Source: a virus. Taken from it: DNA of 59,313 bases. The position numbers and the translations under genes are program-made. The notes beneath the pieces are model-generated. The model saw nothing but the letters and a program-made list of their open reading frames with translations, did not search any database and was not told the origin of the DNA. The DNA lies in IMG/VR virus record IMGVR_UViG_3300037558_001138, positions 1 to 59,313 of that record, one strand, 5' to 3'. Below, one piece after another: positions 2,361 through 59,104 of this stretch. How positions within the stretch are numbered: position 1 is the stretch's first letter; each line of letters opens with the position of its first letter.

Positions 2361-2504
2361 ATGGATTCGCTTGACGTATTGTTTGCCTTTGAGCTTTCTA
2401 TGGCTGCAGAGCTTGAAGACCAGACTGTCTCGTACAGTACTGAGATTTCTATTGGCGACCACACTTACTCACTTACCTACCTGATATATGCCACGCCCGA
2501 GTAA
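2361..2504 (+). CDS. small hypothetical protein, 47 residues
   Basis: Starts MDSLDVLFAFELSMAAELED and ends in a beta-like stretch (HTYSLTYLIYATPE). The ATG at 2361 comes 1 base after the previous stop, and the last 17 bases overlap the next gene, so it fills the operon exactly. An upstream in-frame ATG at 2292 would overlap the previous gene by 68 bases and is less likely. It is acidic, has no motif and its function is unknown. Confidence 0.5.
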   Translation: MDSLDVLFAFELSMAAELEDQTVSYSTEISIGDHTYSLTYLIYATPE

Positions 2505-40234: not shown

Positions 40235-42774
40235 GCAAGAAAAAGATGACACCGGCTCAAGTAGCCGAACAGTTAGGACAGTTTATTTCTAAGCAGGAAG
40301 AAACTCTTAGTCGTTATCCTGTAGGACCACTGGGTAACACAGCACGTCGTAATCTTGAAAAAGGGCGTAAAGCATTAAAAGCTCTTCAAGGTAAGAATGA
40401 GCAGATGCGTATGCAGATGGAGCCTAACCAAGGCGCTACACAACAGATGGCACCGGGAGGGCCAACAGGTGACGAAAGTACGCGTCAATTAGGCTTACGA
40501 AATTTTAACCCGGGCAATTTACGCGTGTGGGGAGAACAGGAAATTAAAGATGGGTTTGCAGTTTTTGACTCGCCTGAAGAGGGGTGGACAGCTTTGCAAA
40601 AACAGCTAGATCGTTACAAGCAGGGCAAGACACCGGGGACTTCGGGTGATATGACATTGCTAGAAGCAATGCAGAAGTATGCGCCGTCTTCGGATAATAA
40701 TAATCCAGATAGCTATGCGCGTAATATTGTCCAGCAAATAAGTCAAAACTTAAGTGGGGCTGGAGTTGCTCCTATACAAATTACAGAGCAAACTCCTATT
40801 AGCGATATCCCGACAGATTTGTGGGCATCGGCTGTAGCGCGGGTTGAAAGCCCACAGATGTATGCAGCACTAGTACAGAGAGACTTGATTCCTGAAAATG
40901 CTATTCTAGAGGTAAGGCCCCAAGATGCTCAGGTAGCTACGGAAGCATTAAAAAGTATTACTAATAGGGCGCCAGATCCTGATACAGAGGAGGCCCGTCG
41001 TGCTGCAGCATTGAAAGAAGCAGATACGCAGGAGACGTTAGCTTTTTTAAATAGCCGACTACCCCAAGAACAGGTACCTCAACAAGCTGCTATGACGGGA
41101 GGTGCTGCGGGAGATGGGCAGTACTTAGGTTACTTAGGAGCTACGTATGGAGCGGAATCTACTAGGCCTGATTTTAACCCCGTACCCCCTCAGGAGATGG
41201 CAGATGCGTCCGCACGAGCGCAAGCCCAGAGTAACTTTAATGCTTTACCAAAAGACGAGCAAAGTACTATTAGAGTAGGGGCTACAATGGATGGCTTAAG
41301 TCCAGATTTCCCCTACGATGAGGTGTTAGAGTGGGGCGAGGAAAATTATGGTGTTAGTGAGGGACGTCAAAACAGTACTAATGAGTCTGGTATTGATAAT
41401 CAAATTATTGGAGCTAATACTTACCAGGCTGGCAAAGGTCATGTTATTTATAGTGGAGACGCTTTAGATCGTTTGGGAGGAGCAGGAGCATCTGTAGATG
41501 AAACTAGAGTTTTACTTCAGTCTTTGGTTTCAAATGGGCTAACAAAAGAACAAGCGTATGAAGCTTTGGCTGAGCCTGATTTTTATAGAAGCATAAAAAA
41601 AGACAATCGGGAAGTAGGTCTTTTTGGTAGGCGATCGATAGAGCGTTTAGAAGAAATGTCCCGTAAAGCAACTCAGTGGGGTAAAGTTACAGAGAACAGA
41701 GAGTCGATGACGACTGCGGTTCCGGACTTGAACACCGATGATCAGTTTACTACAGAACTTGCACCAGGGATAAACCCAGAAGTATCTGTCCGGGATGCTA
41801 TGATTGACGCCGACAGGCAAGCTTTTTGGGAAAGCAAGCGCAGAGATAACTACACGTATCGTCCAGGTATTTACGTGCCTGGTGCTGGAGGTAAAATTCC
41901 TCCAAATGTTCTTGACCCTACAAGTACTACAACACGACAGCTAGCAACAATGCAGGCTCAGCAGCAACGTCCTCTTGATTACCGTGTAATGCCAGACTTT
42001 GGTAATGCTGTAACACCGCAACCTGAGAGATTGGAACAAGTAGGCATGAAGCCAGATACACAAGAGGGTGTTACGACTGTACCAGATGTTGTGTTAAATG
42101 AGCCAAAAACTGAAGAGGTAGCACAATTACCTGTAAAATCTGTAGAAGAGGTTGCGCCTACATTGCCTACAAAAGAACTGCAGGTACCTCAAGCTCCGGA
42201 GATGTTGCAGGTAAATATGCCTAAAATGAACGCTTTACAAGCAGTTCCCGCTATGGCAGCTTTAGGAAGTACAGCTATTCAACGTCGTGCGCTTAATGCT
42301 ATGCAAGGTCCGCAACGACCTGTTGAAACTGCTATTCCTCAGTTTGCTTATGAAAGTAATATCCAAAGCCAGTTGGATAATATTCGTAGCGCTACAACAA
42401 CGGCTTCTCGGGGTAGTAATCTACCTGGACAAGCAGCGGCAGCTAATCAACAAGCGCTTATGGCTGCACGCTTTAGGGCAGAAGGTCAAGCTAGGTCGGC
42501 AGACAATCAAGCTAGGCAGCAGGCAAAAGCTCGGTATGATGCAATGGCGTATCAGGGTCGTTCAGCACAAAATGCTTTGCGGTCTAAATACCAAGATGAT
42601 ATGGTTGCTTTCAACAACCAAAAGGCAATGCTTGATGCTCAAATTAAACAACAGCCGCTTAATGTACTAGCTTCAAGTACACAAGACTACTTAAAGAATA
42701 TTTATGCTCCTAACTTAGCGGCGATGTTTGAGGCCCAAGGACGTCAGTATGATACTACTTATAATCAAGATTAA
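40231..42774 (+). CDS. internal virion protein with peptidoglycan-hydrolase-like domain
   Basis: An 847-residue protein. Residues about 88-210 form a compact domain: LGLRNFNPGNLRVWGEQ, GFAVFDSPEEGWTALQKQLD, LLEAMQKYAPSSDNNNPDSY, resembling the NPGN(L/I)R-type structural lysozyme or transglycosylase domains carried in phage particles. The rest is Gln/Ala/Met-rich and helical, typical of proteins stored in the capsid. It would locally open the peptidoglycan during DNA entry. A long C-terminal helical part (about 690-847) is Gln-rich. ATGA overlap with the upstream gene. Confidence 0.65.
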   Translation: MSKKKMTPAQVAEQLGQFISKQEETLSRYPVGPLGNTARRNLEKGRKALKALQGKNEQMRMQMEPNQGATQQMAPGGPTGDESTRQLGLRNFNPGNLRVWGEQEIKDGFAVFDSPEEGWTALQKQLDRYKQGKTPGTSGDMTLLEAMQKYAPSSDNNNPDSYARNIVQQISQNLSGAGVAPIQITEQTPISDIPTDLWASAVARVESPQMYAALVQRDLIPENAILEVRPQDAQVATEALKSITNRAPDPDTEEARRAAALKEADTQETLAFLNSRLPQEQVPQQAAMTGGAAGDGQYLGYLGATYGAESTRPDFNPVPPQEMADASARAQAQSNFNALPKDEQSTIRVGATMDGLSPDFPYDEVLEWGEENYGVSEGRQNSTNESGIDNQIIGANTYQAGKGHVIYSGDALDRLGGAGASVDETRVLLQSLVSNGLTKEQAYEALAEPDFYRSIKKDNREVGLFGRRSIERLEEMSRKATQWGKVTENRESMTTAVPDLNTDDQFTTELAPGINPEVSVRDAMIDADRQAFWESKRRDNYTYRPGIYVPGAGGKIPPNVLDPTSTTTRQLATMQAQQQRPLDYRVMPDFGNAVTPQPERLEQVGMKPDTQEGVTTVPDVVLNEPKTEEVAQLPVKSVEEVAPTLPTKELQVPQAPEMLQVNMPKMNALQAVPAMAALGSTAIQRRALNAMQGPQRPVETAIPQFAYESNIQSQLDNIRSATTTASRGSNLPGQAAAANQQALMAARFRAEGQARSADNQARQQAKARYDAMAYQGRSAQNALRSKYQDDMVAFNNQKAMLDAQIKQQPLNVLASSTQDYLKNIYAPNLAAMFEAQGRQYDTTYNQD

Positions 42775-42779
42775 GAATA

Positions 42780-44306
42780 ATGGCTGTTAATTTACCTAAG
42801 TCAATGCAGTTTGTAGAGTACAAGCCTTCTATGGTTGGTATTCCTACTCAATCTGCAGCGCGGTATTATGATCGCTTAGATAGAGAAGCTCTTCGTACAG
42901 AAGCGGAATCGAATAAAATTCGTGAAACTCTTGCTAATCACACTGCAATCGCTAGTGAAGGAGATAAACCTTACTTAAACGATTTGCTCGGTAAAGTTGA
43001 GGGCATTGTTGAGCAAGCTTCTACTGAGAAAAACTTGCCCGGATATGCCAAACAGATTCGTAAGCTGGTGGGGGACATTAACGGTTCGCCGGAATATGCT
43101 ACAGTTCGCAATAACGCACGTTTAGCAGAAGAGTATCGTAAAACAGATATGGATTTATCTACAAAGTATGGCAGAGAAAACATTGTACAAAGCGGTGACA
43201 ATCCTAGTAATTTTTCTTCTTTTGGCCCCAATGGTGAGTTGCGTCAGTTCCAAGGATTTGCTACACAGCGACCAGATTACTTAAAAGGTATGGATGATGT
43301 GTATATGAAAAATGTAGACATTGTCGGTTCTCAAGGGGCAATGGAAAAATTTGTTGACGACGGCTTGGCTTTGTCTAACTATCGAGAAACTCCTGAAGGC
43401 CGGGTGCACATAAATGAAATTTCTCAGCAAATGACAGGCATGCCTTTTGATAGGCTACCTGCAGTTCAAAATGAGCAAGGTGAGTATGTGGTAGGTCCTG
43501 AAGGTGTTGCAGTCATGGAAAAAATGAATGACTTGTTAAAGGATGCAGGCTCGCGATATATCAAAACTAAAGCTGTTAAAACTGCTATGGACTCGGGTGG
43601 GCAGTATGAGAACTTAAAGAATAAAGGCATTATTAGTAGTGGTATTGCTAACGTGTCCCTTACAGATGGTACAGATGCAGCAGATCAAACTATTGCTGTT
43701 TTTGACGACCGGGTAAAAAATACAGAGTTAGACGACCAGCTAGTATCATTGGTAGCAAGTGACCCGACAGTGTCCTTGTACGCTAACGCTAGTGGCGGTA
43801 AAGATGGTTTTGAGCGGGGTGCTGGCATACAGTCCAATCAAATTATAGGGTCAAAACTTACAAGTGGTATAGGACCTAATGGTTATCCTCTTATTCAAGT
43901 AGAGTACAACAATAGAGTTGCAGGTAAAGGAAGCGAACAAGGGATAGGGTACTATGAAGCATCTCCAGAAGATGTTCCGTTTATCCAACAAAGCTTGAAT
44001 GGTACGCTTATGCAATTACGTAGTTCTTCTACGACACAAGCGAATCGTATGAGTATGGTACCTGCAATTGCCAATATTTATGACCCTAATTTAAATTCTT
44101 GGATGAAGGGTGAATCAGATGCTGCCCATACTTTTAATAGTCCCAACGGCACAGGGCGAAGCATGGAGGTTAGAAAGGTAGCAACTGGATATGCTGTATA
44201 CGATTCAGAGGGCAATCCGTTGACTAAAAATGGTAAGCCATTTATTGCTACATCGGAAAATACATTACGTAATTTTATCGGGACTTCAATTGTTAACCAG
44301 TTTTAA
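42780..44306 (+). CDS. internal virion (cargo) protein, unknown function
   Basis: A 508-residue protein starting MAVNLPKSMQFVEYKPSMVG. The first 140 residues are helical and charged (YYDRLDREALRTEAESNKIR). The middle is mixed, with a GGQYENLKNKGIISSGIANV segment, and the last 100 residues are beta-rich (MEVRKVATGYAVYDSEGNPL). No catalytic motif is seen. It lies between the hydrolase-like cargo gene and the giant polyprotein gene, 5 bases after one and 11 before the other, so co-packaging and ejection is the likely role. Confidence 0.55.
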   Translation: MAVNLPKSMQFVEYKPSMVGIPTQSAARYYDRLDREALRTEAESNKIRETLANHTAIASEGDKPYLNDLLGKVEGIVEQASTEKNLPGYAKQIRKLVGDINGSPEYATVRNNARLAEEYRKTDMDLSTKYGRENIVQSGDNPSNFSSFGPNGELRQFQGFATQRPDYLKGMDDVYMKNVDIVGSQGAMEKFVDDGLALSNYRETPEGRVHINEISQQMTGMPFDRLPAVQNEQGEYVVGPEGVAVMEKMNDLLKDAGSRYIKTKAVKTAMDSGGQYENLKNKGIISSGIANVSLTDGTDAADQTIAVFDDRVKNTELDDQLVSLVASDPTVSLYANASGGKDGFERGAGIQSNQIIGSKLTSGIGPNGYPLIQVEYNNRVAGKGSEQGIGYYEASPEDVPFIQQSLNGTLMQLRSSSTTQANRMSMVPAIANIYDPNLNSWMKGESDAAHTFNSPNGTGRSMEVRKVATGYAVYDSEGNPLTKNGKPFIATSENTLRNFIGTSIVNQF

Positions 44307-44317: not shown

Positions 44318-47300
44318 ATGGCGGAGGAAAACCAAAAGCCGGTCAACCTGGGCGATCTAGGTACGGCATCATCCTCAGACATTCGCAAAGCTTTAGAAGG
44401 ACAGCCTAGTCCTGTGGAGGCGGATGATTCTGTAGATCCTACACCCCCGACGGAAACGTCTGCTTCGACTCCAGCAGTCGCAGGTACTGATGTTGATGAA
44501 ATTCTAGGTGGGAATGCTTTTAACCTGTCAGAAAAAGAAGACGGGACTTATGAGTTTTTCAATCCTTACGACAGTAATCTAGACGTAGACTTAGATCAGT
44601 TTGAAACGCAACGTCGGCGTGTGTCAGAGGATAGCATGCTTTCTGGCATTTTAAATGGGGTAGAGGGGCTTGAAGAAGGGTTTACCTATGGAGGTATCCA
44701 AGACACTGTAAAACGCAGTGAGGAAGCTCAAGGTGTAGTCAATAAAATGAAGAATGGCTTGACTCAGCTTGTAGCTGATACAGGCATTAATGTAGCTCAA
44801 GGGTTTGGGTCGCTGCTGTATGGGGTTCCTAGTGCTATTGTAAATGGGGACATTACTAAACTTTATGATAATTCTTTAGCTAATAACTTAGATAAGGGCA
44901 CAGAGTTTTTAGACGAGTTCTATAAAATTAAACGAGGTGGGGATCAGAGTACTGGTCAAAAAGCGGCTAACTTTTTATTCGATGACGTAGCGGGTGGTGC
45001 AAGTTTTGTTATGGGTGCTATTGCTACAGAAATGGCATTTACAGCACTTAGTGCGGCTACGTTTGGCGCTGCCGCTCCTGCGCAAGCTGCTGCTACAGCC
45101 GGTCTTGTAGCTCGGGGTACACGCTTAGTACACAAAGCTATGCAAGGGGGCAAGGCTTTAATGTCTGGTAGTTTGGTAGATGATGCGCTAAGGGCTAGCC
45201 GAGCTTTAGGAGCTAAAGCTACTAGGGAAGGTGCGTCTGCTGCCTTACAAACTGCGGCTCAAGCTGCTCGTACTCCTATGGCTATGCAGGCAGCTGCTCG
45301 TGTTTCGCGACAACTTATTACAGGCGCTTCGATGGAGTCAGGTATGGAAGCGCGACATATGCTTAATGCCGCAGTCGAGAATCAAAAACATCAGTACGAA
45401 GATCTAAACGGCAAAGGTTCATTTACTGAAGAAATGTCTGGTCAATTTCGCGAGGAAATTAGCGGATACGCAGATGGGGTTTTTGGTACTAACATGGCTT
45501 TAGTTGGAGCATCTAACATGTTAATGTTCCCAAAGCTTTTTGGGGTCGGACTTCGCAAAGGCATGAGTACCGCTAAGTTTATTGACACAAGTAAACTTTC
45601 ACAAAGAGCACGAGCGCGTCTAGCTAAAAATATGGGCGTAGTAGAAGGTAAGTTACCTCGTATGGTAGATGCTGCTAGGGGCAATACTATGGGACGTATT
45701 GTTGGACGAGGAGGTCAGATTGGGCGGGTAACTGCAGCCAATACTAAAAATGCTTTATATGAAGGCTTTATTGAGGAGGGTGGACAAGGAGCTATCAGCC
45801 GCTCTACCGAGGACTATATCTCTAAACGTTATGATCCAAAAGGGGTAGAAGGCACAGTTAGATTTGCCGATAGCTTTTTAGAAGGGCTAAAGGGAAGCTA
45901 CACGACCAAAGACGGCTTTAAGGAAATTGGTATTGGAATGCTTTTAGCGTTTACCGGTGTTCCTATGTATGCGCGTAATCAGAGTACGACTGCTTCATCT
46001 GAAAGCGAAACAGCAGGTAAGCCTGAAAAGAAGTGGAAGTGGCAAATGATGGGGGGCTATGCGGATCAGCGAAATGCGTTGATAGCTCAGGATAAAAATA
46101 TGGATGCCATTATTGCTTTATCTGAAAAGCATGGAGATGTCGGGGGCATACTGAAAGCAGAAATTTCTAATATGAATAGACAGAATGTCTTGCAGTCTGA
46201 GCAAGACGTTTCTATCCAAGAAGGGAGGTTTAAAGAAGCGAAAGATGCAGAAGCTGAAATGATCTTTTCGCATGCTGCAACCAAAGTCGTTACAGGTCGG
46301 TATGAGCAATCTATTGAGGAAGCTCAGCAGGTAATGGATGAGATGACAGATGAGGAGTTGCGCGAGCAGCTAGGGCCTGATGCAAAAAATATGACGGGGG
46401 AAGACCTGCGTACTCACCGTAATAAAGCTATGGAAAGCTACCGTGCTCGGATGGACCGTGCACGCCAGGCATACGAGAGAGCTGGGGAGGTATATCGCGG
46501 TGCTGATCCCGATATCCATACTGGAGTTGCGCACATGCTTTACATGGTTCAAGAGAAGGATGCTCGTGAAAAAAAGATTGCAGAAGAAATGGCGGGGGCT
46601 ATTGAAGGCATGAATGAGGGTCAGATTCTTGATTTTATGCAAGCCACCAGAGACTTGAATAATAGAGATGAAGTACTTGGCGAACTCCTTACTTTAATCA
46701 ATCGTCGTAAAGACATTGATAAACAACTTGCGACTAAAAAGTCACGGGGTATTATTAAAAATATTGACCCTAAAAAGCAAGAGGCACGAGATGCTGAAGT
46801 AGCGATTTTGCAGGAATCTCAGCAGGAGAACTTAGACGCCATGCAACGTCTAATGGATGTCATGTCAACAGCTAATAATGTTGATCGTAATAAGTATGAT
46901 TTTTCTAGTGTAGACTTCTTAGAGGGTTTAGCTCTCTTGCACCAAGAAATCCAGTTGCAACAAACTCAAGGACAGGGTATTCAGAAAGCAGACATTGAAC
47001 AACTGTATGCAGACTTGCAAGCAGTTTCTGCTGACAGAATGGAGCTTATCAATAATTACAATGACTTTATTAGTCCCGGAGGTGTTCAGCGTTTTGAAGC
47101 GCGAATGATTGGGTCTATTGAGCGATTGGCAGATATGTCTCCTGAAGAACGCAAGGAATCTCGTCAAGAGGCTGCTGCAAAAGAAGATGCAGAAGCCACA
47201 ACCCCAGACTCTTCGGATACTCCTCAAGCACCAGCTGAAGAAACTCCAGCAGCTCAAAGTTCTGACCCTACTGTACCGGGTACTCCACCAACTGATGACG

Positions 47301-50300
47301 GATCAGGTTCTTTTGAAGCGCCTCCTGGTTCAGACGTAGGTCCGGATACTGCGGGATTTGGGTTTCCTGACCCAACTCCAGGTAATGTGGGCGTTCCAAA
47401 AGGCGTTCCAGGTAATATGGGACTTGGAGAGCAAGGCACTGTAGCAGCTCCAACTGAGGTTCCTACAACAGAGCCTGCGCAACAACCTGCACGATCGGGT
47501 GTTGGCGAGGTATCTTTTCAATTTACCAACGCTAACAATAGCACTGAATCCAATGGCAAAAGCCCATTAAATGAGAAGTACTTAGCAGGGTTGAAGAAAG
47601 TAATTTCTGGGCTACCTGTAGGGACTGCTCTTGTAGCTTCACAAAATCCAGATGGTAAATTTAGCATTACTGCGGACGGCGTGCTTTTAGCAGAAGTTAA
47701 AACTTTGCCTACTGCAATTAGGAATCTCTTGAAAACAGAGTCTTCTGTGCAGCTGGTTACTACTTCAGAAGTAGGGCGCAAGTTCGTTGGCGGAGAGGCT
47801 GTAAATGAAATTATAGACGGGGAACTTGTTTCGGCAACCCGAAAGAAAGGACAACCAGCTGTAGAAAGTAGAGTTAACAAAGTTCTACCAAACGGTGCTC
47901 AGGATATTAAAGGCATGAATATTATGCCTAATACACACCATGAGTTATTAGACGTGGCAGGTGTAGACCCTATGGGTAATGTGCAGAAGGTTACTCCGGA
48001 TGCTCGATTTGCGGGAAACCTCTTAGTGTCAACTGTAGATTCTGCAAGCAAGCAGGAAGCTTGGCATTCAGTTCAGCTGGATGCTATGGGGTCAAAACGT
48101 GCTAATCAAATAGTAGACTTAATTGATGCTTTCAATCAGTTTGCGGTTAGCAGAGATGCCATGACTCCAGAACAGGTGCAGCTTCTTAAGACATTTGCAG
48201 ATGCTGCTGATATTAATTTAGATAAGCCTACTTCAGAAGTAGCAAAGCGTATGCGAGGCGAGTTGCGTAGTATGTTAGGAGTCCCCTATGTAAGTAATCA
48301 ACGCAAGAAGTTAAAAAAGTCCATTAGCAATCCTAGTGCTCGTAGGCCTTTGCTTGCAATAGAACCGTTAGGCAAAAAGCAAGAGGGTATCCAACTCATG
48401 AGTTTGCATATGGGAGAAGAGAACCATTCCCACGATAAAGCAGGCAACCGTGTTAGTGCTGGTTCTAAGATTGCTGCCATCCACTTAGCCTCGCACCGAT
48501 TAAATGCTTCGACGCAGGGTAACGTACTAGTTGCAGATGGGGATGGCAATTTTGAGGCTGTAGAGATGCGTGACATGGTAGACCGTTTTGGTAGCTTTTC
48601 CTACCGCATGCCCTTTGTAGTAGATGGTAAAATTTATAATACTCAGTTCTCTACTGTAGAGGTAGGTCTAGAGCCTATGGTTCCGGTTCCTACTGACCCT
48701 CGTACAGATAGGGCAGAAGTAGAAGCTCCAACTGCTGATCCAGCTCTTTTTATCGATTTAGATACTCTGCCTACAGACCTATCAAACTTTACTTTAGATA
48801 CAGATGATTATTTACCTTCTTCCTCACAGGATGCTGCTTCTACAGATCCTATGGAACGAGCAGGGGCTTTGTATGAAGTTCCTGGGCTAACATCGCGCCA
48901 GCTAAAAGATGGGTTAAATTTTAGTACTGGGGTAATGGCTCGTGCTTTCTCAACGCACCTGCGTACAAAAAACCGTTACAAGCCTGTATCGCCAGACTAC
49001 TTACGCCGTACGGTAAAGGGGTACTTAGAAGCGCAACTTGCTCATTATAAATCTTTGAAGCAAGAAGGTCCGGTTGTACAGATTGTTGAGGCTCATGAAG
49101 CCTATCTCAGTGATAAGAACTTTAATCCGTTGATGGATTTAGCTATGGTTTCGTTACTGAACCAGGCAGAGGGTAGTGTGCGGTTACGGGGCAAAGGCGG
49201 CTTGGAGGAAGCTTTAAAAAATATTGGTAGTTCAGATCCGTCTGCAGCAGAATTAGATGAGGCTAGTCAAGCAGAAAGGGAGTCGAACCCTATGGCTGCA
49301 TTTGATGAGAATTTTGCTTTTGGAGTGGACCCTAATAGCACTTTGCGTTTAGAGTCAAAGCTCTTACTTATGGGGTTAGTAGATAAATATGGTGTTAGCG
49401 CAAACTCTTTGGGACTTGCAGGTCAGAAGTTTATCAACTCAAAAGATTTACAGTCTAAACTAAGTTCTGTTCTTGCAGGTGTTGACCCTAGCTATGATAA
49501 AGTTAAAGAACGTTTAGAAGAGTATGTAGCTACTTTTCCCCAGTTCCAATCTGTTTTAGATACTCTAAGCGATCAGTATGCGTTAAGTAGTTTACCTCCG
49601 GGTTTAAAAGCAAACTCTACTGCTAAAGAGTACGCTAAAATTCAAAAGCGTGCCTTGTCTGTCCAAGACATGATACGCAATCAGTTTGTTGTCTTTGCAT
49701 CAAAAGAGTCAACAACGTTTGATAGCGCTACTATCGTTAAGGCAAAAGCCCAGAATGACCCTAATGGTACACCTGCTGAGATTAAAATTTGGAATAGCAA
49801 CTCTCGTAATATGCGGGAGCATGTAGGTAATGACATGCGTTCTACATTAATAGAACGAGGGTTTTTTGACTTAGAGGGAAAACCAGTAAAATCTAAGTTT
49901 AAGGCTGCTTATGATCAGCTTATTAAAATTTCTGAATTGCCTAAGCCAGATCAAGCTAAGGCTTTAGCTGCTGTGCTTAAAAAAGAATTTGGCATTGCTG
50001 TTCCAGTAGTTGCTTTAACGAGCGCAAACCTGACAAAGACTAAAAAGGGCGCCCCTGTATTTAAAGGCATTGAGAAAAGTTTAAATAATCCTAAGAGTCA
50101 GGCAGGAGTATTTGGGCGCTTTAGAAATGCTTTGGGAGTACTGTCAAAGAAAGACCTTCCTTTAGAAGATATGATCAGTGATACTGATGGATATGGCAAA
50201 GATTTGATTAATTTCTTTGTAGGGCTAGCAGACTATAGAGAAAACTTTATTCAAAATAGTAGCAAGGATGGTGACAATAAAGTTCGGTACCAGTTTAGTG

Positions 50301-53300
50301 CCCCTAAACTAATTCATCAAATCCTGCGTGATATAAAAGCTGGAGCTGTACAAGACCCTTTAAGCGTTTTGCTTGGTAAGCGGTTTGCTCAGCTAAGTCA
50401 AGAAAACCAGCGGCTGATTGGTTTAACTTATCTCAGCGGCATTAAACAGGATAAAGGCAGAGAACGCAACTTCCACGCAATGCAGGTGGGAGATAACATT
50501 ATGGCTCAGCTTGCTTTTTACGGCAATCGAAATACTTTCACTCAAAAGAACTCTCGCGGTGAAGTAGTTATGGTGTCGAAGTTTTTGATGCCAACACTAG
50601 CAGATAAACAAACAATGCCTATTCTGCAGGCGCCTGCTATGAGCGCAAAACAAGCAGGTATTGTTTTAAATGAGTCTGTGAAAGACAAGGCATGGGAGTC
50701 GCTTAAGTTCAAGGATGTAGTACCCAATGTAAAGGGAGCATATCAAGGAACTTTGAAAGATAGCATTGATCTTGAGGTAGATCGTATTATGAGTATTCAA
50801 TCAGGTAACACTGAGGGAATGACTGCTGCACAACGTGTGGCGGTAGGCTTTGTGATGATGCCCGGTTTAAATGGTTTAGCAGAAGCTTTTGTTGAGGGGA
50901 AGATTAGTCGGGCAGACTTTAGGGATAAAGTTCACAGTAAGGCTGTAGGAATGTTTGAAGAAGCTATGGATGCAGATATCCAGCATATGCTTCGTGAAAC
51001 GAAGGGTACTATTTGGGAGGAAACAACTAAAAGAGATGGCCCTAAAACGATTGGCAAATTAAATCAGTTTAATGCTTCTAAAGGAAGGAGGAATACGCCG
51101 TCAGACTTTGTCAGGATGCATGTTGCTCCTGGTTTAGATTCTGTAAATAAGGGAGGTATGCATAAGGTTGCTTTTGTAGCTTACCTCGCTAAGTATTCTA
51201 TGGATAGCTTAAATGTCCGCACTGGTATCATCATGGATACTATGGGCGATCCGGGGGCCTTTGTAAAAACTGACAAGGACACGGGTAAGATTAAGCAGGC
51301 TAAAACAGCTACTAATTTAGGTAAGCGCTTTGCTTCTCTTATCGCACCAGGTACTTCTATCCCGTTTGTTTCTTTTAACGACCGGAATGGTAATCCAGTA
51401 TCTAATGAAGCGGTGAACTTCTTGGTTATTCCTTCTCGCATAGTATCAAAAGCAACACATTATGACTACCTAGAAAAGATTGGGCAGTCTGCTGATGAGT
51501 TGTCTATGCAAGAGCATTACGATAGTGCAGATGCTGCAGAGTATACAACTGTAGAAGAACACTTAGGTATTCTTTATGCTCAAGGTAAAATTTCAAGCTT
51601 TGAGTTAGAGGGTATCCTAGGTAAGATTGCTAAGGGTAAAAAGCTAGAGAAGGCAGAGCTTGCTTGGTTTCAGCCTATGAAACCTGTAACTACAGCGCGT
51701 GTGGGAAATCACATGTTGTATGTAAAGAGCGCTTCTTTTCCGTTAGTACCCCAATTAACCCAGGGCACAGAGCTAGATAAACTGCGAGTGTTTATGGAAG
51801 GCAACAATGTCCAGCGTGCTGCATACGATAGTGCAGTAAAGTTGGGCAATGAGTGGGCAGATCCAAATGACAAACAAGCTACAGAAGATGAGAAAATGAT
51901 TCCTGTGCATGAAGGTGCTAATGTCGTAATTGATGAAGAGCCTTTACGTATGCGCGTGATTCGTAATGTGAATCGGAAGTATATGCGTATCCAGCAAGAG
52001 GTACCCACAAGCAAGACGAATGAAAAGGTACACGGTTCTCAAGTAGCTAAGCTGCTTCTTGTGGATCTTATTGATGCAAAGTTCGAGTTGAATGGGGAAT
52101 CTTTGACTGGGCGTGATATGCATGGGAAGTACTTGCAAGCACGTAGAGATGAGCAAGATGCTCGCTTGCGGTTATTTTCAGAGCGTTATGGGTTGACTAT
52201 TGATAAGGAAAATAACCTATATCATACCCCAGAATCGAAGCAAAAGTTTGCTGAACGTATTCAAGAAGAAGGCATTAGTAGGGGCTATGGTCCAAATGAA
52301 TTGGCACACCTTTACTTTGACGATAAGCTAAATGCTTTTACAACTCCTTTAGAAGCAGGACCTAGCTCAGAGCGTATTGAGAACCTTATTAAAAGCATTG
52401 TCTTTAGTGAGGTATATGAACCTAGTATTGAAGGCTTTAGCGGCCCTATACGTCCAGAAGTAGGCCTGAAGACGCTTGATGATAAGCTTGTTGACCAAAG
52501 TGATATCATGTGGCTTAAGAAAGGGGGCAAAAAGATTTTCAAGGGTAATAAGCTGAAGGTTGCTAAGAAAGGGCAGCTGGACCAGATCATTATGCCGTGG
52601 AAATACAAGGCATCCCTTGAGAAGTACATGGATGATGACGGTAATATTAATGCAGATGAGTTGCCACCAGAGTTGCTGAAGACTTTCGCCTACCGTATCC
52701 CCGGCCAGCGTAAGAGTTCTTCGGCTGCTTTTGAGATTGTAGGGTTCTTGCCTGCAGAGTATGGAGATACTTTAATTGTAAATGAAGAGTTGGTAGGACG
52801 CGTTGGGCAAGACTATGACATTGATAAAATGTTTGGGTTCTTGTACTCGATTGAGCAGGCAGAAGATGGTATTATTTCTATAAATAGAGGAGACGATACT
52901 ACCAAGAATCGGTTAGCAAAGGCTCGCAATGAGCAGGTTGATATTTATATCGCTTCTATGGAAGCTATCGACATTGCTGTGGAAAGGGCGGTTCATGCTC
53001 CTGTAACCGATGGGTACGCGAATAGTCTTGCGGATCAGATGGACCAGCTTTTGCACGATGATGCTGTTTTAGGATTGCCTATGAGCCAGTCTTATAACTC
53101 TCGTAAAGCAAATGCTGCTCGTAGTGCTAAAAAGTCTATCGGAGTATTTGCTGTTCACAACGTGTTGCATGCGCAGCTTCAGCAATCGTTAGCTGCGAGT
53201 CGCAATGGTGGGATAGAGTATATGCCAGAGGGCTTCGTTACTATTTTATCAAAGCCAGGGGCAGAAAAACCTACAGAGAATACCAATTTCGGGGATATGG

Positions 53301-56300
53301 GTATCCATGATACTTCTTTTATCCTAGATTATAAGAATACACCAGTCGCAGGGAACCGAAGTGATCAGTTTAGCCGTCTTCTAAATCATGCGGTAGACAA
53401 TGAAAACAACGGGTTACTAGACAAGCTAGGTATTACAGAAGATACTTGGTCATTGTGGACAGGTTTAACTCATATGGGCTACAACCAAGAAACAATTGGT
53501 CTTCTTGTAGCCATGCCTGCTGTTCAAGAGTACTTGACTGCTAAGTCACGTAGCCGTCGTTTAGGGGATTCTAAAGAACTAGAAGTAGGAATTTTTATTG
53601 ACCAATATGCCAGACAGCTTGTAGATAGTAAGACTGGTAAGGTAGACTTAGAAAGTATGCCAGCTTTAGACAAAGAGTCTATGCTGGGAATGGCTCAAGG
53701 CGTTTCAGAACTATCTGAAAAAGAGCAATCTATGATGAATTTCCAAGCGTTATTAGCAGTAGACAAGCTTGAAAATCTTAGGAAAGATGTGGCAAAAGTA
53801 CAGAACCATATGCAGCTCGATACTAAGCGTCCAAAAACAATGGTTGCTTTACAGGTAGCTATTGCTAAAATGGAAATGCCTAATAAAACTGAGTCTAATG
53901 GAAATGTGCTGCCTCTGGATGAGGCTATTGGAGCAACAGGTGCGACGGTTAGCGGTCAAGTTTCTGGATTAGTTGCAAATACTGCAATGACTTTGATGAA
54001 TCTGCAGCAAAACATGCTTCCTATGTCGGATGTCATGCAGCTGGTAAAGGACTTCCAAAAAGCAGAGTTATACGATAGCGTTGAGAATAGTATTACCACA
54101 CTTGTAAAGGGGGCAAAAAGTGCTACTTATGCGCTGTTTACTGAAAAGATTTCAGGTAAGACCAGCGAAGAGATTCGTTCTGAAGCTCATGACATTGATA
54201 CAGGCGGCATAGCTACGCGTTTGATTAAAGCTCGTCAGAATAAAGCTGTAGCGAATAACCCCTTTATTAAACAGCTGGTAGCTGTAAATGCGCCTAATAC
54301 TTATCCGCACATAGAATTTCCTGGGGATAGGCAATTGGAGTCAGATCCAATTGAATTACAACGAGCGTTTTTAGATTTACTACGCAGCTCTGATCCGGAA
54401 GTCAAAGCTTTTGCAGAGTATCTAGTATCGTATGCATTAGCTACTAGCGGAGGTCGTTTAAAGGCAAGAGGGTATTTGAAGTATGTACCTGCTGAATACT
54501 TACAGTCAAAAGGTTTAGGAGATACGGTAAATACTGGGGCAATATCAGAAGTCCTTAACAATCCTTCTAAGATTACTGAGATTGTACGCCATAACTCTGA
54601 GTTAGCTCCAAGATTCAATAAATTTTCAGAAGCTGGAATTAAACTAATACAAGGAGTTCCCCATCAACGTGTAGGCAGTGCTTCTTTTAAAGGACATGTA
54701 CGCGTGGGTAATAAGTTATACGCTCCTACAGAAGACCTGCCGGGCCGTGACTTAGATGGTGTAATGGTCCAACAGTTAAAAGTTGTAACTGAGCTAGGGG
54801 ACTATTTAACGGATGAGTACTCTACTCGTTCTCAGCCTAGTGACAAGCTTCCAACTGCGAAACGACCCAAAGGCCCTTCTTTGTCAGAAAGTCCAAATAT
54901 GCCGGTGCAGTACTACGACTCAATTACTGATGCTGTACCGCCAGAAATGGGCAGTTTTCCTGAAGGTGTGACAGGTCCCCCAGCTAATATGGGCTTAGAG
55001 GGGCCTAAGAAAAAAGTGAATGATGAAGTCGTACGATCTGATAACCCAAATAAAATGCCTATGGGCATTAAAGAGTTTTTGGCTATTTCAGAGTTACGTA
55101 ATAACCCTTTCTTACAAGAGTTAGCCAGAACACAGGAAGCGCTGTCTCCTGAAGATCGCGTCACTGTTGTTGTAAGCGACGATTTGCCAGGTAAGGGTAA
55201 GTACAATGCGGGAACAAACACGGTAACTCTGCGCCGTGATATGATAAACGATTCTCGGGCTGTAACGCATGAAATGATTCATGCCTTTACTAGTTTATCT
55301 ATTAAGGTTGTTCAAGGGCAAGCTAAAATTTCTGATCCTAAGAAGAAGGCAGAAATGGAGGCGGCAGTAAACGAGTTGAAGAAACTCTTTAAAATTGTAC
55401 GTAGCCCAGAGTCCATTGCAAAAATGGGGTTGAGCTTTGCAGGTCAGCAACAGGCAATGAGAGGCTATAGAGCTTTCCGTTCTCAAAGAGACGGTAAGAC
55501 TTTAAGTGCCGAAGAGTTGTTGGACGTAGAGTTCTTCAAAGAAAACTTAGATGATTACTACGCTTTTGTAAGCTTAGAGGAGTTTGTAGCAGAGTCGTTT
55601 TCTAACAAAGCTTTTGCTGAAAGAATGTCTAAGCTGTCGTTGAACCGTAATGAAACTTTCATTGACAGGTTTATTGCAGCTGTAAATAAAGCTTTGATGG
55701 CTTTAGGCGTAAACTTTGGTAAAGACACTGAGTTCTTAAGAGAAGTGTATACTGTAAGCATGGGCATAGTAGACATTCAAACAGGCGGTCAGATTGGTTT
55801 GATACCTGGTCAGGATATACCGTCAAGCGATTTGATTGATGGTGTAGCAGCTGCAGACGTTGCCGGACAGAATCTGAGAGGGGTAGATCAGATGCAGGCA
55901 TACAAGGAAAAGCGTATTAGACAGTTTGAGGAATTGAAGAGTCGCTACAATGGTAACAGGGAGTTTGTACGTAGAGTAGAGGCTAGGCTAGTGCAAGAGC
56001 GCAAGGACTTACAAGCGCTTACTGATGATAGTGTAGAGGTAACGCCCGACTATATGCTGTCTGTAGGTCAAAGAGAGCTAGACTTTGCACGTCGCACTAT
56101 TGAGAATGTCGACTCTACTGACCCGCAGATTGACATGGCATTAAGTGCCTTAGAGAATATCTATAGTGTGGTCGAGTTCTACGATAAGAGTAGGGATATA
56201 TTAAGAGACCCTGCGCTGGTGGATGTGGCTACTGCTTTACGTAAAGAAGCATCGGAGTTAAAAGATAACTACTTGGATAAAGCCCGCGATATCTTACGAC

Positions 56301-59104
56301 GTGATGCTATGCAAGAGCTGGGTAAACTTGGTGTTAATGTTAATGCTGATAGTTTCCAGACGTTGGAGCAAACGGGTTGGTTGAAGTCTCGTCTTATGGA
56401 CGCCTCACGTCAGGGTACAACAGAACTTTCTTTCTTGGATAAGATTGTAAGGGATGCTAGTCAGAAACAAAGAGTCGCGTTTAACTCTCGTGCTAAGCGG
56501 TATATGGATTCTAGTAAACTGTTTAAAGAAACGGCTTACTTTAAGAAACACGGTTGGAACGGGATGGTACAGCTAGATGCAAAGGGTAACCCTACTGCTA
56601 ATATGCTGACCATGCTTAGCGGTTCTTATGAGGCTGAGTACGATTTAAAGCGTGCGGAATTGGGTAATACTAAAGCTTTCTACGATTGGAAGAAAAGTGT
56701 AACTGGTCGCATTGATATCGGTGCTATGTTCGATCTAACTGGCACTGAAGTCAAAAGGAAGAACAACCCTAAATACCTGGAGTATTTGACTAAAACCTAT
56801 GGCAAAGCTGGTGCAGCAGAGTTTTTGCAGCAGCAGGAAACAATGCTACAGGAATATTTAGATATGCGAACAAGTGAGTTTGATACGTTGGACATTACTC
56901 TAGGAGAAAATGCGGCGGATGCAAAGGCTTTATGGGATGCAAAGAATAGTCCTATCCAAGCATACAAACGTGCAGAAGGTAAAGGCGGACGTCGTATCAA
57001 GGGTGCTACTGGGAGGTTCTTATTGGACATTCCTTTACGCACTTTGAAAGGTAAAGCCACCGGTTATTATGATGCTAGGTTTGCAGAGCTGCAAGCTGAT
57101 CCTGAAGCACTAGCATTTTATAATGACTACCGTCAGCAGATGAAGGAAATGATGGCTATGCTTCCTGCGCATAAGATGACACGTGAAGCCCACCTGGTAC
57201 GTAATGGACTGTTTATCCCAGCAATTGCGAAATCATTGACGAACGATTTATTTAAATCTGGGGGACTGGCAAATATGATGGAGCAGCTTCCTGATAATAT
57301 TCGAGGCGCTTTCACTATTGACCCTTCCTATAATGTAAATAAACTCATCGACCCTGTTACGGGGCGACCGCGTCAAGAACTGCCTACATACTTTTTAGGG
57401 CAGGTCGATCCTGAAAGTCAGGAGTATGATATGGATAGGACATTCCTTGCTTTTGCTATGATGGCGACTACTTACGATAGTAAGAACGCCATTGAGGATA
57501 AAGTCCGAATGACTAAGAGTGTGATGGGCAATGCACGTATGCGCACTAATAAAAAAGGCCTTACTGAAACACTCTTAAACAAACTAGGGGCGGAGTCACC
57601 TCCTGGGTATGCAGATGAAGCCAGTAGGGAAACTACTATGAAAACTGTAGATACAGTAGTAGATACTTTCTACGGGTACCAAGGTGCAGACGTAACGTAT
57701 GCAGCGGGTAGGAATCTGTGGACAAAGGAGCAGACGGAAAAAATAGATGCTTTGGAAGAAAACAAACTGGCTGCTAAAACAGAGGAAGAAAAAGAGCGGA
57801 TTCAAAATGAAATTGATGAAGCTACTCCACAAGTAAGTGTAGGTAAAGGTGTTCGCGGTATGCAGCAGTTTATTCAAGCAAAGGGTATGGCGTGGAATGT
57901 CCCAGCAGCTGTTGTTAACATGGTGTTTGGTGCTATAAGCGTCTTCAAACATGCAAGCGGTCAACGTGACTTTACTGAAGCAGACACTCGTAAAGCTACA
58001 GGTATCATGCTTAACAGTACCTGGAATAATATGAGTTTGAATACAGGGCTAACACAGAATGCTGCAGCGTTGAAGATTCAGAATATGATGATCAACTTTG
58101 ATGTACTTAAGGACTTTACAGAGATGCGCTATGATGTCCGCAAGTTTGTCAATCAGGCAAGTGAAGCAGGGGTTAACCAAGCAGCACGCCAGGGCTTTAA
58201 TAAACTAAGGATGTACGAGATTCAACGTAGCTCTGAGTATTTTGTATACGGACAGGGTACTATTTCAGTACTGTTGAACGAAAAAGTAGATGGCAAAAGT
58301 TTATGGGAGCATATGAATGCAGACGGTGTTATTGATATTGATGGGTACCGCCCGGGTGAAGAAAAGCATTTGGCTTTGATGAATAAGATTGACCAGATTA
58401 ACAAACGCATTCACGGTAACTATGACCCAGCAAGCCCTATTGCAATTAAGAAAACATTGCTTGGCCCTCTTCTTATGCAGTTCCGTAGCTGGTTGCCTGA
58501 AGCAGTAGCATCTAGATTTGAGAAAGAAAAGTACGATCCGTATCTGCAACGAACTGTAAAGGGTACGTATCAAACAATGTTTTTTAGTAATGCTATGCGT
58601 AAGCATCTAGGCGCAATGCTGCCAATGCTTATGCCTAGTTGGGCACGTACGAAAGGCATGAATGAAATGAGTTCAGAAATTTCTGAAGTAGATCAAGAAA
58701 ACATTAGAAAGTTCGGAGCCAGCTTACGCCAGTATCTTCAAGTAATGATTCTTATTTCTGTCTTACGTGCCTTGAAAGATGATGAAGACGATAAAGAATC
58801 GTTAATGATTCTGAATGCAGGTCTGAATGTAGCGGACAGAGTTGAAAATGACTTAGCTTTGTTCGGTCGTCCTGGGGCATTCTTAGACATGACTCAAGGA
58901 GATTTCTTAGCTGCAATTGGAGCAGCTAGCGACGTTGAGAAATTTGGAGAAGCTGTAGTTAAAACAGCGCAAGGAGATGGAATGATTGAAACCGGCGTTT
59001 ACGCAGGTAAGTCACGAATGTGGCATCACTTCCAGAAACTAGTACCACACTTAGGTTCAGTACAACGTATGTCTAATAACTTGGATCGTGAACTAGGCTC
59101 TTAA
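44318..59104 (+). CDS. giant 4928-residue virion polyprotein with RNA-polymerase and metallopeptidase motifs
   Basis: One uninterrupted frame. N-terminal acidic linker; Ala-rich hydrophobic part near 226-265; helical coiled-coil block about 646-938; Pro/Thr/Glu linker about 948-1065. Around 2793-2845, RIPGQRKSSSAAFEIVGF, a spacer and GQDYDIDKMFG (DYDID at 2832-2836) match the DxDxD catalytic motif of the virion RNA polymerase of crAss-like phages (phi14:2 gp66 type), where the Asp residues hold Mg. A KKSIGVFAVHN stretch follows near 2940. HEMIH (3651-3655) with EEFVAES (Glu 3754-3759) suggests a zinc metallopeptidase. Near 4721, QFRSWLPEAVASRFEKEKYD is another motif of giant phage proteins. 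It likely enters the host with the genome to transcribe early genes. Confidence 0.72.
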   Translation: MAEENQKPVNLGDLGTASSSDIRKALEGQPSPVEADDSVDPTPPTETSASTPAVAGTDVDEILGGNAFNLSEKEDGTYEFFNPYDSNLDVDLDQFETQRRRVSEDSMLSGILNGVEGLEEGFTYGGIQDTVKRSEEAQGVVNKMKNGLTQLVADTGINVAQGFGSLLYGVPSAIVNGDITKLYDNSLANNLDKGTEFLDEFYKIKRGGDQSTGQKAANFLFDDVAGGASFVMGAIATEMAFTALSAATFGAAAPAQAAATAGLVARGTRLVHKAMQGGKALMSGSLVDDALRASRALGAKATREGASAALQTAAQAARTPMAMQAAARVSRQLITGASMESGMEARHMLNAAVENQKHQYEDLNGKGSFTEEMSGQFREEISGYADGVFGTNMALVGASNMLMFPKLFGVGLRKGMSTAKFIDTSKLSQRARARLAKNMGVVEGKLPRMVDAARGNTMGRIVGRGGQIGRVTAANTKNALYEGFIEEGGQGAISRSTEDYISKRYDPKGVEGTVRFADSFLEGLKGSYTTKDGFKEIGIGMLLAFTGVPMYARNQSTTASSESETAGKPEKKWKWQMMGGYADQRNALIAQDKNMDAIIALSEKHGDVGGILKAEISNMNRQNVLQSEQDVSIQEGRFKEAKDAEAEMIFSHAATKVVTGRYEQSIEEAQQVMDEMTDEELREQLGPDAKNMTGEDLRTHRNKAMESYRARMDRARQAYERAGEVYRGADPDIHTGVAHMLYMVQEKDAREKKIAEEMAGAIEGMNEGQILDFMQATRDLNNRDEVLGELLTLINRRKDIDKQLATKKSRGIIKNIDPKKQEARDAEVAILQESQQENLDAMQRLMDVMSTANNVDRNKYDFSSVDFLEGLALLHQEIQLQQTQGQGIQKADIEQLYADLQAVSADRMELINNYNDFISPGGVQRFEARMIGSIERLADMSPEERKESRQEAAAKEDAEATTPDSSDTPQAPAEETPAAQSSDPTVPGTPPTDDGSGSFEAPPGSDVGPDTAGFGFPDPTPGNVGVPKGVPGNMGLGEQGTVAAPTEVPTTEPAQQPARSGVGEVSFQFTNANNSTESNGKSPLNEKYLAGLKKVISGLPVGTALVASQNPDGKFSITADGVLLAEVKTLPTAIRNLLKTESSVQLVTTSEVGRKFVGGEAVNEIIDGELVSATRKKGQPAVESRVNKVLPNGAQDIKGMNIMPNTHHELLDVAGVDPMGNVQKVTPDARFAGNLLVSTVDSASKQEAWHSVQLDAMGSKRANQIVDLIDAFNQFAVSRDAMTPEQVQLLKTFADAADINLDKPTSEVAKRMRGELRSMLGVPYVSNQRKKLKKSISNPSARRPLLAIEPLGKKQEGIQLMSLHMGEENHSHDKAGNRVSAGSKIAAIHLASHRLNASTQGNVLVADGDGNFEAVEMRDMVDRFGSFSYRMPFVVDGKIYNTQFSTVEVGLEPMVPVPTDPRTDRAEVEAPTADPALFIDLDTLPTDLSNFTLDTDDYLPSSSQDAASTDPMERAGALYEVPGLTSRQLKDGLNFSTGVMARAFSTHLRTKNRYKPVSPDYLRRTVKGYLEAQLAHYKSLKQEGPVVQIVEAHEAYLSDKNFNPLMDLAMVSLLNQAEGSVRLRGKGGLEEALKNIGSSDPSAAELDEASQAERESNPMAAFDENFAFGVDPNSTLRLESKLLLMGLVDKYGVSANSLGLAGQKFINSKDLQSKLSSVLAGVDPSYDKVKERLEEYVATFPQFQSVLDTLSDQYALSSLPPGLKANSTAKEYAKIQKRALSVQDMIRNQFVVFASKESTTFDSATIVKAKAQNDPNGTPAEIKIWNSNSRNMREHVGNDMRSTLIERGFFDLEGKPVKSKFKAAYDQLIKISELPKPDQAKALAAVLKKEFGIAVPVVALTSANLTKTKKGAPVFKGIEKSLNNPKSQAGVFGRFRNALGVLSKKDLPLEDMISDTDGYGKDLINFFVGLADYRENFIQNSSKDGDNKVRYQFSAPKLIHQILRDIKAGAVQDPLSVLLGKRFAQLSQENQRLIGLTYLSGIKQDKGRERNFHAMQVGDNIMAQLAFYGNRNTFTQKNSRGEVVMVSKFLMPTLADKQTMPILQAPAMSAKQAGIVLNESVKDKAWESLKFKDVVPNVKGAYQGTLKDSIDLEVDRIMSIQSGNTEGMTAAQRVAVGFVMMPGLNGLAEAFVEGKISRADFRDKVHSKAVGMFEEAMDADIQHMLRETKGTIWEETTKRDGPKTIGKLNQFNASKGRRNTPSDFVRMHVAPGLDSVNKGGMHKVAFVAYLAKYSMDSLNVRTGIIMDTMGDPGAFVKTDKDTGKIKQAKTATNLGKRFASLIAPGTSIPFVSFNDRNGNPVSNEAVNFLVIPSRIVSKATHYDYLEKIGQSADELSMQEHYDSADAAEYTTVEEHLGILYAQGKISSFELEGILGKIAKGKKLEKAELAWFQPMKPVTTARVGNHMLYVKSASFPLVPQLTQGTELDKLRVFMEGNNVQRAAYDSAVKLGNEWADPNDKQATEDEKMIPVHEGANVVIDEEPLRMRVIRNVNRKYMRIQQEVPTSKTNEKVHGSQVAKLLLVDLIDAKFELNGESLTGRDMHGKYLQARRDEQDARLRLFSERYGLTIDKENNLYHTPESKQKFAERIQEEGISRGYGPNELAHLYFDDKLNAFTTPLEAGPSSERIENLIKSIVFSEVYEPSIEGFSGPIRPEVGLKTLDDKLVDQSDIMWLKKGGKKIFKGNKLKVAKKGQLDQIIMPWKYKASLEKYMDDDGNINADELPPELLKTFAYRIPGQRKSSSAAFEIVGFLPAEYGDTLIVNEELVGRVGQDYDIDKMFGFLYSIEQAEDGIISINRGDDTTKNRLAKARNEQVDIYIASMEAIDIAVERAVHAPVTDGYANSLADQMDQLLHDDAVLGLPMSQSYNSRKANAARSAKKSIGVFAVHNVLHAQLQQSLAASRNGGIEYMPEGFVTILSKPGAEKPTENTNFGDMGIHDTSFILDYKNTPVAGNRSDQFSRLLNHAVDNENNGLLDKLGITEDTWSLWTGLTHMGYNQETIGLLVAMPAVQEYLTAKSRSRRLGDSKELEVGIFIDQYARQLVDSKTGKVDLESMPALDKESMLGMAQGVSELSEKEQSMMNFQALLAVDKLENLRKDVAKVQNHMQLDTKRPKTMVALQVAIAKMEMPNKTESNGNVLPLDEAIGATGATVSGQVSGLVANTAMTLMNLQQNMLPMSDVMQLVKDFQKAELYDSVENSITTLVKGAKSATYALFTEKISGKTSEEIRSEAHDIDTGGIATRLIKARQNKAVANNPFIKQLVAVNAPNTYPHIEFPGDRQLESDPIELQRAFLDLLRSSDPEVKAFAEYLVSYALATSGGRLKARGYLKYVPAEYLQSKGLGDTVNTGAISEVLNNPSKITEIVRHNSELAPRFNKFSEAGIKLIQGVPHQRVGSASFKGHVRVGNKLYAPTEDLPGRDLDGVMVQQLKVVTELGDYLTDEYSTRSQPSDKLPTAKRPKGPSLSESPNMPVQYYDSITDAVPPEMGSFPEGVTGPPANMGLEGPKKKVNDEVVRSDNPNKMPMGIKEFLAISELRNNPFLQELARTQEALSPEDRVTVVVSDDLPGKGKYNAGTNTVTLRRDMINDSRAVTHEMIHAFTSLSIKVVQGQAKISDPKKKAEMEAAVNELKKLFKIVRSPESIAKMGLSFAGQQQAMRGYRAFRSQRDGKTLSAEELLDVEFFKENLDDYYAFVSLEEFVAESFSNKAFAERMSKLSLNRNETFIDRFIAAVNKALMALGVNFGKDTEFLREVYTVSMGIVDIQTGGQIGLIPGQDIPSSDLIDGVAAADVAGQNLRGVDQMQAYKEKRIRQFEELKSRYNGNREFVRRVEARLVQERKDLQALTDDSVEVTPDYMLSVGQRELDFARRTIENVDSTDPQIDMALSALENIYSVVEFYDKSRDILRDPALVDVATALRKEASELKDNYLDKARDILRRDAMQELGKLGVNVNADSFQTLEQTGWLKSRLMDASRQGTTELSFLDKIVRDASQKQRVAFNSRAKRYMDSSKLFKETAYFKKHGWNGMVQLDAKGNPTANMLTMLSGSYEAEYDLKRAELGNTKAFYDWKKSVTGRIDIGAMFDLTGTEVKRKNNPKYLEYLTKTYGKAGAAEFLQQQETMLQEYLDMRTSEFDTLDITLGENAADAKALWDAKNSPIQAYKRAEGKGGRRIKGATGRFLLDIPLRTLKGKATGYYDARFAELQADPEALAFYNDYRQQMKEMMAMLPAHKMTREAHLVRNGLFIPAIAKSLTNDLFKSGGLANMMEQLPDNIRGAFTIDPSYNVNKLIDPVTGRPRQELPTYFLGQVDPESQEYDMDRTFLAFAMMATTYDSKNAIEDKVRMTKSVMGNARMRTNKKGLTETLLNKLGAESPPGYADEASRETTMKTVDTVVDTFYGYQGADVTYAAGRNLWTKEQTEKIDALEENKLAAKTEEEKERIQNEIDEATPQVSVGKGVRGMQQFIQAKGMAWNVPAAVVNMVFGAISVFKHASGQRDFTEADTRKATGIMLNSTWNNMSLNTGLTQNAAALKIQNMMINFDVLKDFTEMRYDVRKFVNQASEAGVNQAARQGFNKLRMYEIQRSSEYFVYGQGTISVLLNEKVDGKSLWEHMNADGVIDIDGYRPGEEKHLALMNKIDQINKRIHGNYDPASPIAIKKTLLGPLLMQFRSWLPEAVASRFEKEKYDPYLQRTVKGTYQTMFFSNAMRKHLGAMLPMLMPSWARTKGMNEMSSEISEVDQENIRKFGASLRQYLQVMILISVLRALKDDEDDKESLMILNAGLNVADRVENDLALFGRPGAFLDMTQGDFLAAIGAASDVEKFGEAVVKTAQGDGMIETGVYAGKSRMWHHFQKLVPHLGSVQRMSNNLDRELGS

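Follow-up and report, generated by a model that had tools for sequence, protein, structure and literature searches.

The window analysed here, the whole stretch of 59,313 bases, is IMG/VR virus contig IMGVR_UViG_3300037558_001138, which is probably a fragment of a larger genome. PHROG profiles matched crAss-type TerL, portal, MCP and stabilisation proteins on the contig, and a tblastn search with TerL gave matches in 165 phage records; the nearest TerL among the matches listed is that of the Fpv phages (39%), which their record assigns to no family within Crassvirales. A 1486-aa protein of the contig resembles p-crAss gp49 (E 6e-181). At 40231..42774 (plus strand) lies an 847-aa homologue of p-crAss gp47 (E 1e-54), a probable cargo/ejection protein in which residues ~59-212 resemble lytic-transglycosylase-like phage proteins, e.g. 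that of epsilon15, and are perhaps the wall-cutting component of the injection set. It is followed at 42780..44306 (plus strand) by a 508-aa protein with a weak match to p-crAss gp46 (E 9e-4), the probable second cargo protein, and then by one ORF at 44318..59104 (plus strand) that starts with ATG and runs for 4928 codons with zero internal stops. Gene order around this giant ORF is syntenic with p-crAss gp49-47-46-45-44 and, by position, the ORF therefore corresponds to gp45 and gp44 in one gene. Elsewhere on the contig, positions 34192-36330 encode a protein of 712 aa that contains 40 cysteines and carries a Por_Secre_tail domain (type IX secretion sorting; Pfam E 1.2e-7), odd content for a phage structural block.

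We interpret the ORF, with high confidence, as one gene for a predicted crAss-like cargo chain, in the order N module, RNA polymerase, zincin, C module. The ORF as such was seen in one contig only, and a stop codon lost in assembly could in principle have joined neighbouring genes. That possibility is negligible: the same one-chain ORF is found in relatives (L003, 4910 aa; L006, 4966 aa; L008, 4937 aa), and the recurrence on further contigs of an ORF of 4910-4966 aa, with identities of 71, 51 and 41%, refutes an assembly artefact.

The sequence-only reading had placed a DYDID motif at residues 2832-2836, with more than 2000 residues on each side, and likened it to the crAss-like virion RNA polymerase, whose cultured example it put at about 2200 residues. 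All of this was borne out. The motif (52811..52825, plus strand) has 2831 residues before it and 2092 after it, RIPGQRKSSS begins at residue 2793, the phi14:2 protein measures 2180 aa in its record, and its structure, 6VR4, was matched both by sequence and by predicted fold. With phmmer, the virion polymerase of phi14:2 (6vr4_A) matches residues 2395-2844 at E 1e-18, and a tblastn search with positions 50720-53000 matched 118 of 50,697 phage records, including Fpv, phi14:2, crAss001 and p-crAss, so that the motif is not a chance occurrence. A profile built from 35 sequences over residues 2385-3185 finds 6vr4_A at E 2e-124; the DxDxD falls in an aligned RIPxQ...GxDxDID block, and DYDID is aligned to DFDID 1361 of phi14:2.

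Profile, structure and model together delimit a two-barrel RNA polymerase core at 51470..53872 (plus strand, residues 2385-3185). The AF2 model of these residues (pLDDT 85.2, pTM 0.84) matched 6vr4_A in Foldseek at E 1.1e-27 and in VIA at Z 24.9 over 705 residues (3.7 A, the barrels scored together), with further VIA matches to the QDE-1 family (Z 14.6), plant RDR2 (13.3) and a P74 phage protein (9.2). The outcome that the earlier reading had named as refuting it, a lack of any predicted double-psi barrel, did not arise: the model aligns with 6vr4_A and QDE-1 across the region of both barrels. The first-barrel region, with approximate limits at 51713..52072 (plus strand), holds Lys 2508 and Lys 2578, which we take, from QDE-1 and cellular RNAP, to be the catalytic lysines. 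Neither Lys 2508 nor any of the metal-binding aspartates 2832, 2834 and 2836 varies in the alignment (35/35 rows), and Lys 2578 is present in 33/35. The phi14:2 polymerase (6VR4; gp66 in papers, gp077 in KC821624) shares family, fold and active-site residues with the present core. By collinearity with phi14:2 gp77 we assign 48818..51469 (plus strand, residues 1501-2384) as the N-terminal part of the polymerase; a family profile search detected no direct homology between these residues and gp77 1-948. Judged by alignment and model, the centre of the chain is a genuine two-barrel RNA polymerase and belongs to the crAss-like virion type.

Might the polymerase have decayed to a surviving motif in a chain that is now a structural or tape-measure-like protein? 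The activity of the present chain is only predicted, and the available text of PMC10770324 describes, in Thermus phage P23-45, the fusion of a polymerase with a tape measure of 5002 aa. That protein, gp96, resembles the present chain in carrying a two-barrel polymerase within a ~5000-aa virion protein, but differs in that its polymerase sits at the N-terminus of the tape measure protein. We consider decay very improbable: the invariance of the three aspartates and Lys 2508, and the near-invariance of Lys 2578, argue against it, as does core identity to L003, L008 and L006 of 71, 55 and 49%, with third codon positions much less conserved than first and second.

To judge from family matches, the flanks of this core are homologues of cargo proteins for which crAss phages usually have genes of their own. 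The N module (44615..46657, plus strand, residues 100-780) is homologous to phi17:2 gp39 (E 5e-38) and to the csAssE-Sib structural protein (E 3e-22). On the N side, crAss001 gp47 matched weakly over residues 122-1083 (full-sequence E 0.0027 or 2e-7, by profile numbering), phi14:2 gp78 appeared at E 0.07-0.12 only, and p-crAss gp45 was unmatched by the family profile; against PDB sequences the best E of the N profile was 0.033. The C module (55868..59101, plus strand, residues 3851-4928) has counterparts in phi14:2 gp76, crAss001 gp49 and the C part of p-crAss gp44, with 105 matching ORFs across the fetched loci; its best PDB match (E 7e-4) is a designed helical protein. The family profile lays these proteins out in order along the chain: phi14:2 gp77 at residues 2394-3172 and gp76 at 3740-4917, crAss001 gp50 at 2480-3114 and gp49 at 4302-4824, and p-crAss gp44 at 2400-4918. 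Phi14:2 gp076, which matches the C module in order, also has HExxH near its start.

Two fast-changing linkers separate the modules. The first (46658..48817, plus strand, residues 781-1500), near the border between the N and polymerase genes of relatives, is 47, 35 and 24% identical to L003, L008 and L006, versus 87, 70 and 51% for the N module; the second (53873..54994, plus strand, residues 3186-3559), near the border between polymerase and C genes, is 53, 44 and 30% identical. Dips in conservation along the chain coincide with the points at which the genes of relatives are split. The hydrophobic part that had been noted earlier is present in a moderate form, with a stretch near residues 221-260 of the N module and best 19-residue hydropathy means of 1.36 and 1.35 within residues 1-900, and no clear membrane helix was found; the channel proposed on the same occasion is weakly supported, by this moderate hydrophobicity of the N module.

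The part described earlier as protease-like is a zincin-type domain (54995..55867, plus strand, residues 3560-3850) with HEMIH at 3651-3655 and Glu 3755 as candidate third ligand; HExxH is conserved in 35/38 aligned rows and the Glu in 34/38. Among the proteins matched by its profile are 9sfn_G, an internal virion protein (E 6.7e-17), 11fw_A, a chain of a virion polymerase (E 1.7e-7), and 8vb2_A, an ejection protein (E 3.3e-6), and hhalign scored the domain at 98.3% over 158 columns against C1 of nine N4-like polymerases, with reversed and shuffled controls at or below 0.4%. In VIA, the best matches of the zincin model were structures of anthrax lethal factor (Z 7.3) and N4 vRNAP (9pnt, Z 6.5), both under the guide value of 8; the sequence profile is the stronger evidence. 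Foldseek gave no match for the model at E 0.001, Pfam found nothing on the zincin of the present chain, and the Pfam SprT-like family was seen in 14/38 zincin rows at E up to 0.1.

An internal zincin between polymerase and C module, together with linkers at the module borders, raises the question of whether the chain is a polyprotein that is cut, before or after entry, into N, polymerase and C proteins as in phi14:2. The available text of Iyer et al. 2017 (PMC5512222) proposes that zincin-like peptidases process multidomain phage proteins. The polyvalent proteins of that work combine unrelated enzymatic domains, often with a zincin peptidase, in one polypeptide delivered by the virion, and the present ORF, with polymerase and zincin domains, may be one of them. 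The zincin does not track fusion, however, since it is present in 14/19 loci with three genes and in 9/13 one-chain loci (the IMG/VR part being the best 80 of 497 relatives), and in p-crAss, crAss001, cr271 and Dulem 41 HExxH is located in the N protein instead. Moreover, N4 C1 carries HExxH and, in the available text of PMC12633501, this related domain is part of the full-length recombinant chain of a solved structure; according to the portion of PMC5512222 available, nearly all N4-like polymerases carry a fused zincin. The processing activity suggested in the sequence-only reading is weakened by the occurrence of the zincin in three-gene loci and in other ejection proteins, and we regard cleavage of the chain as doubtful.

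How the same parts are distributed over genes varies widely among relatives. Gene states were scored at 85 loci with a complete polymerase ORF, the IMG/VR loci among them being drawn from the best 80 of 497 relatives and labels L009-L022 and L125-L129 denoting named crAss genomes; incomplete ORFs and L002, L004, L012, L017, L053 and L098 were left out, and N was counted as fused when at least 2200 residues lie ahead of DxDxD. Thirteen loci encode one chain, 31 join N to the polymerase and keep C apart, 14 join the polymerase to C and keep N apart, 19 have three genes, one is partly split and seven are unclear. The N profile was detected in 5/13 of the one-chain loci (again with the best 80 of 497 IMG/VR relatives). 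Three proteins are found in phi14:2, crAss001 and Dulem 41; a separate N with polymerase and C fused in p-crAss and its kin; and N fused to the polymerase with a separate C in Fpv, cr55, cr114 and cr10. In a tree of 97 polymerase cores, the present chain groups with seven others (support 100), and Fpv1 lies outside this clade. At least 18 changes among the four states are required; when one chain is set against split, the minimum is 8. The largest one-chain protein seen, that of L084 (5642 aa), is Cys-free and distant on the tree. Other cuts of the chain occur in the epsilon-type phages L013 (27563-33307, 25660-27213) and L014 (26291-28549): Cys lies close to either terminus of phi17:2 gp38 (517 aa) and csAssE-Sib WOZ57303 (752 aa), as expected of middle pieces.

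The giant chain contains no cysteine in 4928 residues, where 48.7 would be expected at the rate of the 29 other ORFs, or 30.6 without the two Cys-rich ORFs; the 508-aa and 847-aa upstream neighbours have none either. Likewise, 11/13 one-chain proteins of relatives lack Cys (IMG/VR part, best 80 of 497). Where relatives split the chain, cysteines are sparse and stand at the facing ends. Counting a Cys as terminal when it lies within ten residues of an end, taking the first Met of the frame as start, and additionally leaving out L005, L108, L109, L110 and L113, we found in this sample (IMG/VR part, best 80 of 497) that at the border between polymerase and C the polymerase end carries one in 48/49 cases and the C start in 48/49, and at the border between N and polymerase the polymerase start in 31/33 and the N end in 27/29. 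Free termini in this sample carry almost none (starts: 2/47 N-fused ORFs, 0/22 separate N; ends: 0/27 C-fused ORFs, 0/35 separate C), and background ORFs have 24/286 at the start and 46/286 at the end. The two sides go together: in the same sample (IMG/VR part, best 80 of 497), polymerase/C borders have Cys on both sides in 48 cases, on neither in 1 and on a single side in 0, and 26/29 N/polymerase borders have it on both.

Named phages illustrate the arrangement. In phi14:2, the only Cys are the last residue of gp78, residues 3 and 2179 of 2180 in gp77 and residue 3 of gp76; in phi17:2 Cys is the last residue of gp39, residues 4 and 516 of 517 in gp38 and residue 3 of gp36. The sole Cys of Fpv1 gp33 is residue 4400 of 4401, and gp34 has Cys at residues 3 and 1461; p-crAss has Cys at residue 1956 of 1957 in gp45 and at residue 3 in gp44. 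Internal Cys is also present, mostly in gut phages, and the fused polymerase and C protein of cr271 totals 15. Random placement of Cys would give a log10 P of -73, which is not a fair probability, because the rows are related and the calculation ignores kinship. An independent-pair test on starred branches gave 5.6 to 0 (median p 0.03) for the N/polymerase border and 3 to 0 for the polymerase/C border, too few to reach 0.05. For five extra genomes (cr107, cr128, cr8, cr10 and cr11), the prediction was written before they were opened: 11/12 facing ends and 0/9 free ends carried Cys, the single miss (cr10_1) having its Cys 11 residues from the end, one past the limit, and the cr10 C end being left out as its stretch is possibly cut.

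The exceptions are few and of several kinds. That of L016 arises from the choice of start, the annotated start placing the Cys at 35, and in L067 the Cys is 15 from the end. L048 and L070 count as one chain by length, yet have Cys 3 and 5 at the start; this is like their sister L034, and probably they too have a separate N ahead of fused polymerase and C. L024 is split with both sides lacking Cys, its C frame overlapping in another frame with no early Met, and L045 likewise has no Cys at its break. These Cys-free breaks in overlapping frames (L024 13768-13801, L045 9509-9546) may be sequencing errors or real frameshifts, and in L024 a fused chain may have been interrupted by a frameshift. In p-crAss, Cys is the penultimate residue of gp47 even though gp46 is Cys-free.

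We think it likely, though by no means secured, that the cargo proteins of crAss-like phages are joined head to tail by disulfides and that, in the present chain, gene fusion replaced the bonds and every cysteine was lost. The lone Cys near the end of one cargo protein would pair with the lone Cys found at residue 3-6 of its successor. In this way the ejection protein, the polymerase and the C subunit would form one covalent thread, pulled through the tail in order; the reducing host cytoplasm would then cut the bonds and release the parts of the thread. Selection would thereby keep the covalent continuity of the thread rather than the number of genes. Because the Cys ends are paired, border-specific, independent of adjacency and gone on fusion, a tail-to-head disulfide is the simplest mechanism; a metal site common to both proteins, or a thiol link of some other kind, may be an alternative. 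A constraint from gene overlap as the cause of the terminal Cys is rejected, since in crAss001, cr85 and cr128 the N gene is on the opposite strand and still has its Cys 3-4 residues from its end. The available text of PMC10172136 describes disulfides between other proteins of the crAss001 virion, and a text search of that source did not find terminal Cys in crAss cargo proteins; nor was a report of them found in the literature searched, which stops short of the phi14:2 structure paper (Nature 2021) and Yutin 2018. Genes annotated as thioredoxin or thiol-disulfide isomerase lie near the polymerase block in p-crAss (gp39, gp37), Rudgehvirus, cr128_1 and cr8_1 (loci L011, L021, L126 and L127), and their products might help to form or break disulfides of the cargo.

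Among the closest known systems, phi14:2 has three proteins (gp078, gp077 and gp076) with border Cys, in contrast to the present single Cys-free chain. P-crAssphage (BK010471) shares the gene order and already has polymerase and C fused in gp44, annotated 'RNAP catalytic subunit fused to unknown RNAP subunit', but unlike the present chain it has a separate N protein, gp45 ('RNAP associated protein fused to zincin protease'), with HExxH in that protein and border Cys in gp45 and gp44. The Flavobacterium phages Fpv1 and Fpv3 have giant proteins containing the polymerase, like the present one (gp33 and gp32, 4401 and 4287 aa); they differ in that the C module is a separate 1596-aa protein, with Cys penultimate in the first protein and at residue 3 in the second, and they belong to another clade of the polymerase tree. 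A giant polymerase-bearing chain is not itself new, since such proteins of up to ~6000 aa are already described for crAss-like phages in the available text of PMC10136315.

A close parallel in architecture is the N4 virion RNA polymerase (Schitoviridae), a giant protein with the same order of N, polymerase, zincin and C, and no cysteine occurs in 9/9 N4-like polymerases examined. The absence of Cys from these polymerases is also in print, with passage into the cell as suggested reason (PMC3715699, PMC3915230 and PMC2784036, in the portions available). The N4 polymerase, however, is T7-like and the present one two-barrel (hhalign of the polymerase profile against the N4 polymerase, 0.2%), and the C module scored 0.7% against N4 C2. 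A likeness between the N module and the N-terminus of N4 was looked for and not found: local hhalign gave 98.6-99.0% with all N4 segments, even the polymerase, a sign that the tail of the N profile causes an artefact, and the head alone gave 2.5%; global-mode comparisons consisted of one-column alignments and were dropped. N4 gp51 and gp52 have no Cys, and N4 therefore does not use terminal disulfides.

We infer that the chain would be packed in the phage head and threaded unfolded through the tail, N module first, a passage to which the absence of cysteine is suited; the N module would lodge in the cell envelope, and the chain would refold in the cytoplasm and transcribe early genes while tethered. 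That the parts travel together, as had been proposed from the sequence, is supported by inference, since the flanks are crAss cargo homologues and the chain is Cys-free like the N4 virion polymerase. The phi14:2 counterparts bear MS/MS notes in their record, and crAss001 gp47, gp49 and gp50 were found in virions, according to the available text of PMC10172136, which holds that the order of ejection is likely set by packing and mutual interactions.

Placed beside the N4 virion polymerase, the crAss chain agrees with it in the order of its parts and in having a homologous zincin domain, but its polymerase is unrelated. If the disulfide reading is true, a covalent thread, made of peptide bonds in the present chain and of terminal disulfides in its relatives, would answer how several proteins of 150-500 kDa pass in order through a narrow tail, and would explain why gene borders in this block move so freely.
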